From assembly GCA_944323485.1 (NCBI GenBank), contig CALUSR010000001.1:316437-380436 (forward strand): a stretch of 64,000 nt of DNA. Direction: 5' to 3'. Within the stretch, counting starts at the first letter, position 1; each line of letters begins with the position of its first letter. This stretch comes from Candidatus Gastranaerophilales bacterium (lineage in GTDB: Bacteria; Cyanobacteriota; Vampirovibrionia; Gastranaerophilales; CAJFVJ01). The translations under genes and the position numbers were made by a program. The notes below the pieces were generated by a model. The model worked only from the letters and a program-made list of their open reading frames with translations, was not told the DNA's origin and did no database searches. Shown piece after piece: positions 8,132-38,953 of the stretch.

Positions 8132-8917
8132 ATGTTAAGAGCTCTAATGACAGCCGCAACAGGAATGGATGCACAACAACTGAATATTGACGTAATAGCG
8201 AACAACGTCGCTAACGTATCAACAACCGGCTACAAAAAGGTAAGAACAGAATTTCAAAGTCTTTTGAGCCAGATAGAAAGAGCCCCGGGTGCTCTTGTTG
8301 CTCAGGGTACAAATCAGCCTGTAGGCGTTGAAGTCGGTCTTGGTGTAAAGCCATCTGCAACACAGAGAGTTTTTACAAGCGGTACAATTGTTTCAACAGG
8401 AAACTCTTTTGATGTTGCAATAGAAGGAGACGGATTTTTCAGAATCCAGCTTGATGACGGAACAATAGCCTATACACGTGATGGAAGTTTCAAAGTCGAT
8501 GGAAACGGTACTTTGTGTACAACCGATGGATATATTGTACAGCCTCAGATTACAATCCCTCAGGATGCAAATGAGTTTATCATTACATCTGACGGGAAAG
8601 TATCCGTCAAAATAAATAACGAACCAACACAGACAGAAATAGGTACACTCGAACTTGCAAAATTTATAAACCCTGCAGGGCTTATATCAATGGGTAAGAA
8701 CCTTTTGCTTGAATCACCGGCTTCAGGTCAACCAATACAGGGTATCCCGGGACAGGAAGGTTTTGGAACTCTTCTTCAGTCATCACTTGAAGGCTCAAAC
8801 GTTCAAATAGTAACGGAACTGGTTAATCTTATTCAAGCTCAAAGAGCTTTTGAGGCAAATTCAAATATGATTCAATCTGCAAGTGAAATGCTTCAGCAGG
8901 CTAATCAAATAAGATAA
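8132..8917 (+). CDS. flgG: Flagellar distal rod protein FlgG
   Basis: Forms the distal rod passing through the P and L rings. The 261 residues match the usual FlgG length. It starts MLRALMTAATGMDAQQ with NNVANVSTTGYKK, and ends with GSNVQIVTELVNLIQAQRAFEANS, the hallmark FlgG C-terminus. A good ribosome site (GGGAGG) precedes the ATG. It sits between flgF and flgA in the rod/ring operon. Confidence 0.96.
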   Translation: MLRALMTAATGMDAQQLNIDVIANNVANVSTTGYKKVRTEFQSLLSQIERAPGALVAQGTNQPVGVEVGLGVKPSATQRVFTSGTIVSTGNSFDVAIEGDGFFRIQLDDGTIAYTRDGSFKVDGNGTLCTTDGYIVQPQITIPQDANEFIITSDGKVSVKINNEPTQTEIGTLELAKFINPAGLISMGKNLLLESPASGQPIQGIPGQEGFGTLLQSSLEGSNVQIVTELVNLIQAQRAFEANSNMIQSASEMLQQANQIR

Positions 8918-8929
8918 GGAAGAAAAATA

Positions 8930-9643
8930 ATGTTTAGAACTTTAAGCAAAATATTTTTAATAATACTATCAGGGGTAATTTTTACCTCCTGTGCCGATGC
9001 TAAAGTTTTGAGCAAAGATTTTATAAACAAACAGGTTACCTCACAGCTTAATCAGCAGATGAAATCATCCGTAAAAGGTGAATTGAAAACGGAAATAATG
9101 CCTCTTTATCTGAATGACACCGTTGTACCGGATGGAGAAACAAAAATAAAAGCTTACTTTAAAGACAGAGTTTTTTCTCCTAGAAAAATAGCAACCGTAG
9201 ATATAATCGTAAACGGAAAGACAGAGAAAAAATTAAATATGCCCATTAATCTGAAAGTTTATGATGAAGTTTGGGTTACAACTGGAATAGTTACGAGGGA
9301 TAAGAATTTTAACTTGAGCAATACTGAACTCAAAAGAAAAGATATAACAAATAACTACGAAAACGTTCTTCGTTCAAAAGATGACATAACTGAATATGTA
9401 GCAAATAAAAACTTTGGAATATCAGAAATTATCAATAAAAAATACATAAAACAAAAACCTGATATAACAAAAAATTCTACAATCTCTGCAATTATGCAGG
9501 CGAACACCATACAGATAGCTTTTGAAGTACAGGCAACTGAAAGCGGATGTATAGGAGATATGATAAAAGTAAAAAGTCCCAAATACAAAAGATTTTATAT
9601 GGGTGAGGTTATTAACAAAAATATGGTATTGGTAAAAATATAG
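8930..9643 (+). CDS. flgA: Flagellar P-ring assembly chaperone FlgA
   Basis: Periplasmic protein that assists P-ring (FlgI) polymerisation. The hydrophobic N-terminus (IFLIILSGVIFTSC) is a secretion signal. Cleavage is likely after ADA, although the cysteine in FTSC makes a lipoprotein alternative possible. The C-terminal part has the SAF-domain pattern typical of FlgA (LKRKDIT, ISEIINKKYIK, AGxxI-like NTIQIAF, GDMIKVKSP). It lies directly before flgH and flgI. Confidence 0.83.
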   Translation: MFRTLSKIFLIILSGVIFTSCADAKVLSKDFINKQVTSQLNQQMKSSVKGELKTEIMPLYLNDTVVPDGETKIKAYFKDRVFSPRKIATVDIIVNGKTEKKLNMPINLKVYDEVWVTTGIVTRDKNFNLSNTELKRKDITNNYENVLRSKDDITEYVANKNFGISEIINKKYIKQKPDITKNSTISAIMQANTIQIAFEVQATESGCIGDMIKVKSPKYKRFYMGEVINKNMVLVKI

Positions 9644-16165: not shown

Positions 16166-16639
16166 ATGGGAAATAACGATTTATTTATAAAAAAAACTTC
16201 TTATATTCCTGAACTTGATAGTCTTCTTCTGCTTGCAGACCCTGATAAAAATATGGTTGCAAAGTATATCAATGATGGAGATATTTTTGTTGTGTATCAA
16301 TCTGGAGAAATAATAGCGGAGTGTGTTGTTGTCAAAAATTCCGACAGTGAATATGAACTGAAAAATATTGCCGTCAGAGAAGACTTTCAAAATAAGGGAT
16401 TTGGCTCCATGCTGCTTGAGCATATTTTTGATGTTTATTCGAAAAAATGCAGCTATTTGATTGTTGGAACAAGCGAAAGCGGCACAGGTTTTTATGAAAA
16501 ATTCGGTTTTATTCTTTATTCGAAGAGAGAAAATTTCTTCAAAGACAACTATTCTGAACCCGTATATGAAAACGGCAGACTATGTGAGCATATGTATATG
16601 TTGAAGAAGATATTTACTGCTGATAAGACTGCAAAATAG
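16166..16639 (+). CDS. GNAT-family N-acetyltransferase
   Basis: Acetyl-CoA-dependent transferase of unknown substrate, 157 residues. The acetyl-CoA-binding motif A is clear: LKNIAVREDFQNKGFGSMLL (Q/R-x-x-G-x-G/A loop as QNKGFG). The later GFYEKFGF is the usual motif B. CGGAG precedes the ATG. The last 26 bases overlap, tail to tail, with the HNH/coiled-coil gene on the other strand. Confidence 0.88.
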   Translation: MGNNDLFIKKTSYIPELDSLLLLADPDKNMVAKYINDGDIFVVYQSGEIIAECVVVKNSDSEYELKNIAVREDFQNKGFGSMLLEHIFDVYSKKCSYLIVGTSESGTGFYEKFGFILYSKRENFFKDNYSEPVYENGRLCEHMYMLKKIFTADKTAK

Positions 16640-18506
16640 CCTGTCCTTCCTGACAGCGTTTTTCAATTATTGATATTTCGGCTTTGAGTTTGTTTATTTT
16701 ATCTTCAACATTTATCCATTTTGCTTTTGATTCAAGTCTTTTGATAGTTTCGTTTAATGTGTTGAGTTGTTGTTGTATTTCTTCTTCATCTTCGTTTGAA
16801 TAAGCCATTTCGAAGGCTGATGTTTCTTCTTCAAGCCTTGCTTGTCTGTCTTGTGCATCAAGAATATCTTCATCTGCATTGTTTATTTGTTTTTTAATAT
16901 ATTCATATTCATCAATTTTTTTTGCTTTTTGCACAGCCGGGTCTGCTTCGAGGGCATCAAGTTGTCTTAAGAAGTGTTCTTCCGAGATTAAGAGTATTTC
17001 TTGGAGTTCTTTGTCACGTTCTTTGCTTTTTATGAGGTCGAGTTGCTTCAGAGTTTCTTTGTATTTTTTGTATTTTTCTTTTTCTTCATCTGACATTTCA
17101 AGGCTTTGGCTTTGCTCTATTTCCGTTTTTCTTTGTTCGAGAGATGCTTTTCTTTGAGTCAGATTCGGCATGGTAATGTTTTGGACAGCTTGCAGTTCTT
17201 TCATGGCTGCTCTATATTGCCCGTATTCTTTTATTTTTTCTTCAAGACCCTGTTTTTGTTCTCTCAAATCTTCTATATCGGGAAGTTTTGCTCTCAGAGT
17301 TTGTAATCTTTGACTCACCTGTTCTATTTCTTCGTTTGTGTGAACAAGAGTTGTTTGTGCTGCTTCGAGTTTTTGTCCGAGTCTTTCTTTTTTTTCATCG
17401 TTGTCAACTTCTTCCCGTTGTCTTTGTTTTTTTCTCTTCATTTTTTCAACGGTTGAATTTTTTTTGTCTTCTTTTTTGAGAGCAGCATTAATTCTTGAGA
17501 TAGATGTTGTTGCTTGTTGTTTTGTCTTTTTCAAAGAGCTCAGTCTGTCAGAGAGTTGTTTTTTTTCTGAAATAATTTGAAACTCAGGGTCTAATCTCAT
17601 ATCCTTAACTTCTTTTTGAAAATTTTCGAGATCCTGTTCTTTTCTGGTTTTTTCTCTGATCTGCATCTGGATAGCTGTGTCCATATCTCCAAGACATTCC
17701 TGAATATCCCTTGTCAGGCAATCAACCTGACTTTGTGCTGTTGCACGTTTTGATTCAAGAGATTTCAGACGTGTTTTGAGTTCTGTTATATCTTCTGTTG
17801 ATTCAATTGTCCTTGAGAGGGTTTTTGTTCCGTTAACATTAGCGAAATCAAGTTTATCCTCAGGCATGAAATAGGCAATTGTAGGATAAAGTGCTAAAAA
17901 TTCATCAAAAGGCAGACCGTTTTTAATATCGTGGTTGCAGGTGTAGCAGGCTTCTACAAGATTCATCTGATTATTCATGTTGTCAGATTTTTCTCTTTGA
18001 GGGTCAACATGGTCTATTGTTGAGAGCATGGGGTGCATATTCTCGAGGATAACATCCACGGGGTCTTTTTTGTCAGGATTCAGATATTGATTTACCAAAT
18101 CTTTCGCAAGTATTCTCGGATATTTTCTTGATAAAGTATTTAGCTCGTTGAAGAATTTTATTTCTTTTGAGTTTTCTTCTCTTTTTCTTTTTGCAAGATG
18201 GCTGTCATTGCCTATTTGTCCTATGTTTTGGAGAATACTTTTGATATCGCCTTCAAGGAATTTTTTGTTGTGATTTGCGATGGTTCTTGCTTTTGAGAGA
18301 AGTTTTTGTTCGGAATAAACTTTTTCGCCGCAGTAGGCACAGTGATTTGTAGGATGTTCTATCTGTTTTTTGCTGTAGTCTTTCCCTGAGAATGAGACTG
18401 TATCGCAACTAAGTTGAGGTCTCATTTTAAGAGTTGAATTTTGAGCCTCATGATTATTTTTTTGATAAACATTAAATATATTATAGTTTATAGGTAATAT
18501 GTTCAT
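16614..18506 (-). CDS. HNH nuclease-like protein with long coiled coil and N-terminal DTVSFSG tag
   Basis: 630 residues. Residues 1-41 form a low-complexity leader, MNILPI ... DTVSFSG (35-41), resembling that of the protein at 37841-38953. Residues 56-199 hold the pieces of an HNH zinc-bound nuclease motif: Cys56-x2-Cys59, Asp165-His166 in STIDHVDP, Asn182 in NLVEA, and Cys187-x2-Cys190 followed by NHDIKNGLP. About 105 helical residues separate the first CxxC from the DH pair, more than in ordinary HNH domains. From about 240 to the end it is one long Glu/Lys/Gln-rich coiled coil. The ATG has no clear ribosome site. Nuclease activity is inference; a structural role is equally possible. Confidence 0.78.
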   Translation of the reverse strand: MNILPINYNIFNVYQKNNHEAQNSTLKMRPQLSCDTVSFSGKDYSKKQIEHPTNHCAYCGEKVYSEQKLLSKARTIANHNKKFLEGDIKSILQNIGQIGNDSHLAKRKREENSKEIKFFNELNTLSRKYPRILAKDLVNQYLNPDKKDPVDVILENMHPMLSTIDHVDPQREKSDNMNNQMNLVEACYTCNHDIKNGLPFDEFLALYPTIAYFMPEDKLDFANVNGTKTLSRTIESTEDITELKTRLKSLESKRATAQSQVDCLTRDIQECLGDMDTAIQMQIREKTRKEQDLENFQKEVKDMRLDPEFQIISEKKQLSDRLSSLKKTKQQATTSISRINAALKKEDKKNSTVEKMKRKKQRQREEVDNDEKKERLGQKLEAAQTTLVHTNEEIEQVSQRLQTLRAKLPDIEDLREQKQGLEEKIKEYGQYRAAMKELQAVQNITMPNLTQRKASLEQRKTEIEQSQSLEMSDEEKEKYKKYKETLKQLDLIKSKERDKELQEILLISEEHFLRQLDALEADPAVQKAKKIDEYEYIKKQINNADEDILDAQDRQARLEEETSAFEMAYSNEDEEEIQQQLNTLNETIKRLESKAKWINVEDKINKLKAEISIIEKRCQEGQAILQSYQQ

Positions 18507-37620: not shown

Positions 37621-37789
37621 ATAGAAAAAGTTGGCTAAAAAACGAATATATGAGAAAATAATATTGCCTCTGCGGGTTCATTCGTTTTGATCCTACATTT
37701 TTTTATACAGGGAGTCTGACTTCAGAATAACAAAGTATACCTAGTGTTTTTGCATTTTAGGAAACGGCGATTTATTCGAGAGGACACCC

Positions 37790-37808
37790 ACCTGCTGGCT
37801 TAGCAGGT
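37790..37808. repeat. Short hairpin in a 220-bp gap
   Basis: ACCTGCT-ggctt-AGCAGGT, a perfect 7-bp stem in the gap 37621-37840 between a kinase and the beta-solenoid gene. The region is less AT-rich than its surroundings and has the look of a decayed intergenic repeat (also CCTGTAGGGGCAC nearby). I see no gene in it. Confidence 0.45.
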
Positions 37809-37840
37809 ATCAAAACCTTAGCCTGTAGGGGCACAATTTT

Positions 37841-38953
37841 TTATTTTTTGGGTTTTACATCTCTGTTAATTATCAGATTTGCACTTTTATCTTCGATAGG
37901 TTTAGAGCTTGAAGGAAAGTATTTTACTTCATATTTCGGATTTTGTTTAAGAACAAATACTTGACCATTCAGCTGGGCTCCCTCTTCAACGTTGATTATA
38001 TAATTTGCGCCGGGAATATTTTCAACTTGTTCAAAAACTATATCACCATTTATGTTTGTGCCTTTTGGAATGGTAACTTCAATGTCTTCGCCGGGTTCAT
38101 AAAAGAAACAGCTGAAGGTAACATCACCGAGTTCATTATTCCCTGACATTTTAAGATTTTGCGGGTTGCATCTCAGTTCATCTATTTTTGTATTATGGAG
38201 GGTTATTTTTGACAACGGAACTCTTGTGTCAATAAATTTTTCTATATGGCTGTCAGAAGCATCAAGGACCTGTTTGTGTCTTATTTGGTAGAAATCCATA
38301 GGACCTATTTTGCTGTTATTTGTAATATAAAAAATGTTTTGACTCGGGCGGGTTTCAGGGTATCTTATTTGTTTGATTGTTGAGTTATTGACAGTCAATT
38401 CATTATCAATAAGATTTCTGCCGCCTTTTATCGGATCATTTGTGAAAAGGGCAACACAACCAATGGTGCTGTCAGAGATATTGGCATGTGCTATAGTTTG
38501 TGATCGAAGTTCGACTGTAGCTGCATTTGAGTTATCAGCCATGGTCAGATTGCCGGCACGTACTTCTGATACTGTTGTTTTTTTCAAGTTTACATCAGGT
38601 GCTTCAAGAATTCTTTCTATATTACAGTTTCTGGCATTTATAATTCTTGCATCTATAGGCTTAGATGGTTCATCTGTTTTGCTTACACGTTTTTTTGCTT
38701 TGATTGTTGAATTAATGAAGGTGTATTCTTTTTTTCTGTCGGTTTTGAATTTTTCGTGTGCTCCTACTACTTCGCCTGATAAAACAGCAGGGGCTTTCTT
38801 GAATCTGTTTTGTGGTCTCGCTGCAGCTGAAAAAGTTACCGTATCCAGAACAGGCTGCTTTAAATTTTGATATGTACTTGAAGATGGTGAGTTCAGATTA
38901 TTTTTAGGTTGATGGTTTGTTGAAAAACTAATTTTTACGGGTTGTATATTCAC
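37841..38953 (-). CDS. Predicted beta-solenoid protein with N-terminal DTVTFSA tag
   Basis: 370 residues, function unknown. The leader MNIQPV ... DTVTFSA (37-43) parallels that of the HNH/coiled-coil protein at 16614-18506. From about 95 to 340 the sequence has short alternating hydrophobic strands separated by N/D/G turns (ARIINARNCNIERI, TVELRSQTIAHANISDSTIG, LTVNNSTIKQI), the look of a right-handed beta-helix such as bactofilin- or adhesin-type folds. There is no conventional signal peptide. It starts with GTG preceded by AGAGG at good spacing. Confidence 0.75.
   Translation of the reverse strand: MNIQPVKISFSTNHQPKNNLNSPSSSTYQNLKQPVLDTVTFSAAARPQNRFKKAPAVLSGEVVGAHEKFKTDRKKEYTFINSTIKAKKRVSKTDEPSKPIDARIINARNCNIERILEAPDVNLKKTTVSEVRAGNLTMADNSNAATVELRSQTIAHANISDSTIGCVALFTNDPIKGGRNLIDNELTVNNSTIKQIRYPETRPSQNIFYITNNSKIGPMDFYQIRHKQVLDASDSHIEKFIDTRVPLSKITLHNTKIDELRCNPQNLKMSGNNELGDVTFSCFFYEPGEDIEVTIPKGTNINGDIVFEQVENIPGANYIINVEEGAQLNGQVFVLKQNPKYEVKYFPSSSKPIEDKSANLIINRDVKPKK

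Follow-up and report, generated by a model that had tools for sequence, protein, structure and literature searches.

A shared two-part N-terminal leader on unrelated proteins of Gastranaerophilales and a candidate flagellum-derived export apparatus

Two genes of the window and their common leader

Gastranaerophilales, an order of gut bacteria related to cyanobacteria, are widespread and have mostly not been cultured. We analyzed a stretch of 64,000 nucleotides from one of their genomes (C1:316437-380436 of a 2.05 Mb genome that is 99.5% complete), hereafter the window, in which two unrelated protein genes begin with the same kind of N-terminal leader. The first (16614..18506, minus strand) is an open reading frame with an ATG start coding for an HNH/coiled-coil protein of 630 aa, whose N-terminus reads MNILPINYNIFNVYQ...SCDTVSFSGKDY. 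Its leader covers residues 1-41 (18384..18506, minus strand) and consists of the proximal element MNILPIN (18486..18506, minus strand), with Ile at positions 3 and 6 and without an acidic residue, a polar linker and the distal motif DTVSFSG at residues 35-41 (18384..18404, minus strand). The HNH endonuclease-like core lies at 17925..18026 on the same strand, where Pfam family PF01844 matches positions 160-193 of the Met-less query below threshold (E=0.01; 16.4 bits versus a gathering score of 21.4); a distant homologue from locus L036 passes this score with 27.5 bits. In the AlphaFold model residues 1-51 are disordered and the HNH region and coiled coil are mostly confident, which places the distal motif outside the mature fold. 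A fold search with this model returned coiled-coil noise only.

The second gene (37841..38953, minus strand), an open reading frame with a GTG start, codes for a repeat-like protein of 370 aa whose N-terminus reads MNIQPVKISFSTNHQ...VLDTVTFSAAAR. Here the leader spans residues 1-43 (38825..38953, minus strand), from MNIQPVK through a polar linker to DTVTFSA at residues 37-43 (38825..38845, minus strand). A single homologue, 87% identical and from the same genus, was found among the 146 genomes of the order, which are also the basis of all order-wide counts below; in this sister genome DTVTFS is replaced by DTISFS. The protein is possibly a solenoid, and the beta-solenoid predicted for it in a preliminary description of the window remains unconfirmed, as the AlphaFold model, built from two sequences, has a mean pLDDT of 35 and the one Pfam indication, of pentapeptide repeats, stays below threshold (E=0.19). 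GTG starts are frequent in leader genes, being found here and in about half of the homologues of an alpha-amylase-type protein described below (L232-L254). A 6S RNA (RF00013, 54.9 bits) at window positions 37662-37837 on the plus strand ends 3 bases from the stop of the 370-aa gene, which is on the opposite strand.

The same description had pointed to the MNI-x-P start and to the distal motifs in both reading frames, and the translations bear this out. It had also regarded the remainder of the two proteins as unrelated, in accordance with the BLASTP alignment between them, which is essentially restricted to the leader (16/43 identical, E=0.15). Most wobble positions of the leader codons are different in the two genes (GATACAGTCTCATTCTC, GATACGGTAACTTTTTC, GATACTGTATCTTTTAG), so the likeness is one at the protein level.

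Extent, composition and cargo of the leader

The pattern DTV[ST]F[ST] has four DNA matches in the genome versus three for a reversed-pattern control. Three of the four are N-terminal leaders, namely those of the two window proteins and of a 498-aa protein at C1:7515 that begins MEINNN...GHDTVSFSTK. A further leader gene (L080:1545-2264) carries DTVSFG at residues 35-40, and D[TVI][VI][ST]F matches six times in about 251,000 sampled residues, four times at residues 33-37. The literal motif also occurs in other genomes of the order, in further unrelated proteins from loci L126 (340 aa), L148 and L161 (about 450 aa), the last two of which resemble each other and both adjoin an HNH gene. The proposed signature is thus present elsewhere and N-terminal there; as a literal hexamer it is too narrow and had to be widened, because many leaders lack D-T-V and the real consensus is looser. 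With four matches only, the strict hexamer was rejected as a genome-wide tag. Whole-genome DNA pattern counts for the leader were likewise dropped, since the pattern is unspecific and photosynthetic cyanobacteria also exceed the control, and the distal motif alone, enumerated without bias, was not significant after multiple testing and is too weak by itself.

The broader leader is bipartite: M-[N/K/Q]-[I/V]-x-x-[I/V/L] at the extreme N-terminus is followed, about 10-60 residues in, by [V/I/L/P]-[S/T/N]-F-[S/G/K]-[G/S/A], and the linker between them is acid-poor, rich in Asn, Ser, Thr and Pro and variable in length. We counted it with the strict pattern M-[KNQR]-[IVL] ... [VILSTAPN]-[ST]-F-[small]-[small] in a 46% sample of the window's own genome, on which all rates for this genome rest and in which genes were called by a simple script. 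It matched 17 of 800 protein starts (2.1%) versus 4 of 2,939 internal Met residues of the same proteins (0.14%), a 15-fold excess, while a looser form was observed 31 times with about 3.5 expected.

Thirty leaders, curated by hand and not blind, were compared with 568 soluble controls. Acidic residues at positions 2-12 averaged 0.13 in the leaders versus 1.32 in the controls, and the 17 hits of the strict pattern, picked by the regular expression alone, are equally depleted (mean 0.12). Asn, Gln, Ser and Thr make up 44% of the curated leaders versus 24% of the controls, Pro is doubled and the content of Ile, Leu, Val, Met and Phe is 22% versus 30%. Ile or Val stands at position 3 in 26/30 leaders, a position partly selected by the search, and Ile, Val or Leu at position 6, which was not selected, in 17/30; Asn or Ser is preferred at position 7. 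The Phe of the distal motif lies at residues 12-61 (median 32), Gly precedes the final small residue in 14/30 leaders, the others having Ser, Lys or another residue there, and the residue four past this Phe is hydrophobic in about 3 of 20 leaders judged by eye. Neither a hydrophobic core nor a twin Arg is visible by eye, no dedicated predictor having been run, and for lack of a hydrophobic core a Sec/Tat signal peptide was rejected. A double-glycine leader, as cut by C39 peptidases, was rejected as well, Gly being at the key position in only 14/30 curated and 2/30 amylase-type leaders. The reading frame called at L024:360-653 was left out: it translates a short-spaced repeat, with AIVSFRNHLLYN occurring three times, that resembles the leader motif and probably belongs to the edge of a CRISPR array. 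An 823-aa membrane-type protein (L010:4374-6845) is seemingly a tandem duplication that carries the leader motif twice, as ISFKG near residue 60 and as LSFSAN...ISFGKK in mid-protein, ahead of the second copy.

Two families keep both ends of the leader. Script scoring found an [M/V/L][KNRQ][IV] start in 32 of 34 homologues of the HNH protein and [VI][ST]F at the motif position also in 32/34. Pairwise identity is 32% in the linker, versus 27% for a shuffled partner, 62% in the motif and 70% in the flank, and homologues with only 22-28% identity to the window protein have a randomised linker and still keep both ends. All HNH homologues found, including one of 95% identity in Candidatus Adamsella avium, come from Gastranaerophilales records or gut metagenome-assembled genomes (some of them cyanobacterial), which confirms the statement of the preliminary description that proteins of this order carry such leaders. 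The second family is an alpha-amylase-type protein of 1,340 aa with matches in 143/146 genomes, some weak ones of which may be other amylases. Its N-termini carry the leader in 30 of 30 cases examined, with the Phe in all 30 and Gly or His two residues on, while the linkers are scrambled in length and sequence; as scored, the Phe is at position 9-35, in several cases below residue 19.

Pfam recognizes ankyrin repeats (two genes), TPR, alpha-amylase and a sub-threshold HNH domain among the proteins that follow leaders, and the others have no family. The ankyrin, TPR, HNH and amylase proteins show no evident Sec signal, and the convincing cases do not include any housekeeping enzyme. Sequence searches of the PDB with three cargo proteins gave nothing significant, which leaves the labels assigned by eye, calpain-like (L001), ADP-ribosyltransferase-like (L024), phosphoribosyltransferase-like (L020) and HExxH metallopeptidase-like (L006), unconfirmed. 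Leader genes also stand in tandem pairs or triplets (L020, L098, L105, L017), which suggests expanding families. That the shared N-terminal leader is real is practically beyond doubt. Its presence on many unrelated proteins, the scrambled linkers of two families and the disorder in one model also lend good support to the earlier suggestion of a modular address instead of homology of the mature proteins.

A second, flagellum-derived type III apparatus

All 146 genomes have a member of the FlhA family and 144/146 have FlhB, but only 54 have flagellin; about 90 of the 92 flagellin-less genomes retain both FlhA and FlhB, which argues for a kept function. FlhA scores fall into two classes, one of roughly 870 bits that tracks flagellin and one of roughly 700-735 bits that nearly every genome has. 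The second FlhA (FlhA2) lies in a cluster of the FliI-FlhA-FliH-FliF-FliE-FlgC-FlgB type, with rod genes in several genomes, and by score it is nearer to flagellar FlhA than to SctV, although below both curated cut-offs; the FliF of the second apparatus is likewise nearer to flagellar FliF than to SctJ. A tie of the leader to the canonical flagellum was rejected because genomes without flagellin also have the HNH leader family. The near-universal FlhA and FlhB, also without flagellin, make a flagellum-derived type III system the leading candidate for a machine that would read the leader. For a filament-less gut genome, Di Rienzi et al. read the flagellar state as ongoing reduction (PMC3787301). 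This genome also lacks the L and P rings (PMC3787301), so that export may end in the periplasm and not outside.

A soluble, stand-alone FlhA-C protein of about 490 aa is a possible candidate for a leader receptor. It is encoded at L078:13888-15369 (C1:553888-555369 of the window's own genome) and L123:2512-3969, and it has an FlhA cytoplasmic domain (PF00771 positions 309-655) in its second half, behind an unrelated N-terminal domain. Its gene adjoins fliJ-, flgD- and flgE-like genes. The stand-alone domain is present in genomes G000, G001 and G104 and absent from three checked genomes of the sister family f8. Genome G134 has one FlhA-family match only, yet it has a leader-like HNH gene (L036), so the association between leader and stand-alone protein is not strict.

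Some neighboring genes should also be mentioned. In genome G057 a leader gene (L086:10212-10880, MNVRPSSDYNNSVRFSG..., MNVRPSS...VRFSG) lies 77 bp downstream of flhA2 on the same strand. Conserved coiled-coil-like proteins that begin with MGxxxSQxRxLxLxxxxxxxEYxxQ (L082:2585-3559, L082:4870-5202 and L087:18856-19182), encoded close to the second FlhA cluster of the flagellin-less genomes G001 and G030, have no convincing Pfam family and are possibly structural parts or substrates of the second apparatus. In the window itself flgG-like and flgA-like genes are situated at 8132-9643 on the plus strand, outside both flhA clusters.

Possible roles of the leader

The leader is probably an address or export signal. 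We tentatively propose, on circumstantial grounds, that it may be read by the type III apparatus. The two short elements would be the targeting signals and the disordered linker only a flexible spacer, and one cellular machine would read both elements and bring unrelated cargo to one place outside the cytoplasm. If this machine is the second export apparatus, FlhA2-FlhB2-FliF/E/H/I, the substrate might dock through element 2 at a gate component on the cytoplasmic side, for example FlhB-C or FlhA-C, after which its hydrophobic N-terminus would open the gate, as has been suggested for early subunits of the flagellum. In those subunits non-polar residues at positions 3-7 and a docking motif work best about 30 residues apart and the spacer sequence is irrelevant; the FlgD-type signal needs a spacing of 19 residues or more between its elements, preferably 30 (PMC8983047). 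The leader similarly has non-polar residues within positions 3-7, a second motif 10-60 residues in and a variable, disordered spacer, but its cargo is not a rod or hook protein and its export is putative. Like the signals of injectisome effectors, it is rich in Ser, Thr, Asn and Pro, disordered (in one model), acid-poor and placed on unrelated cargo, and published type III signals favour a coil rich in these four residues (PMC3617162); unlike the leader, those signals lack a common linear motif (PMC3617162). A secretin, needle or translocon of an injectisome was not identified here, no search having been aimed at these parts.

Export apparatus without a filament has precedents. In Buchnera, basal bodies without filaments keep export apparatus and rod genes beyond the loss of flagellin and protein export has been proposed (PMC8109811), although no secreted proteins are recognised there, whereas here the apparatus is order-wide and accompanied by a large set of candidate substrates with a common leader. 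Myxococcales have a long-conserved non-flagellar type III secretion system, which is related to the flagellum and unconnected with motility (PMC3459982); unlike it, the apparatus described here scores nearer to flagellar FlhA and FliF than to SctV and SctJ and keeps FliE and rod genes. In the literature that we searched, neither the leader nor a system for type III delivery is described for Gastranaerophilales.

Several observations limit the proposal that a type III apparatus reads the leader, or weigh against it. In the sister family f8, whose FlhA is of the same class, 0/446 genes have a strict leader, and the amylase-type protein is missing too. The rate of 2.1% in the window's own genome is clearly the highest, with 1/246 in G001 and 2/198 in G104, and single strict matches, in G001 as in cyanobacteria, are at background level. 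Full-length FlhA was not seen in 2/146 genomes. The distal motif is [VIP]-S-F-x-G and not Fxxx-phi as in the FlgD-type signal, in 3/30 leaders its Phe precedes residue 19, below the spacing need of Salmonella FlgD, and several cargo proteins resemble multi-pass membrane proteins, which is odd for a secreted substrate.

Some of these points would suit an intracellular docking tag, the elements binding a cytoplasmic or inner-membrane scaffold without export, in the manner of short linear motifs or encapsulation peptides. Short conserved ends joined by a disordered linker would suit any receptor that binds peptides, some cargo looks like multi-pass membrane proteins, HNH proteins are usually intracellular, and leaders are much rarer in f8 despite FlhA there. 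We nevertheless consider such a tag rather unlikely, because the cargo leans towards ankyrin, TPR and amylase proteins and proteins without assignment, with no convincing housekeeping enzyme, and because acid depletion with a non-polar position 3 is typical of export signals and not of generic docking peptides. It is decidedly unlikely that the leader serves export by another machine, whether another transporter, outer-membrane vesicles or a transporter like the type I secretion system whose peptidase cuts after F-x-G/A. The motif often ends in Gly, Ala or Ser, as many cleavage sites do, and the leader and the type III apparatus do not have the same distribution; yet the variable residue before the final small one (Ser, Lys, Gly or Thr) does not make a double-glycine leader, the hydrophobic core required for Sec/Tat is missing and a type I system is reported to be lacking in gut members (PMC3787301). 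An N-terminal extension spread by gene fusion and duplication and left without function would fit the tandem paralogues (L098, L105, L020), which show spread by duplication, but such a relic is very improbable given the survival of both ends in HNH homologues with a randomised linker and the invariant Phe of the amylase-type proteins. Chance or a low-complexity artefact in an AT-rich genome is almost certainly not the explanation. The simple Asn/Ser/Lys-rich linker and the non-significant distal motif would suit it, but the excess at true starts over internal Met stands against it, and the two diverged families, in which both ends are conserved, already contradict it.

It is possible, though somewhat doubtful, that the leader marks the substrates of an unrecognised route of protein delivery, Gastranaerophilales having kept a flagellum-derived type III apparatus past the loss of the filament to export dozens of unrelated effector- or exoenzyme-like proteins through a common two-part signal. 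With a leader that can be read, dozens of "hypothetical proteins" become a single set open to testing, which is possibly the set of proteins that act outside the cytoplasm of these bacteria. It also offers a reason why the flagellar export apparatus is kept in many flagellin-less members of the order.
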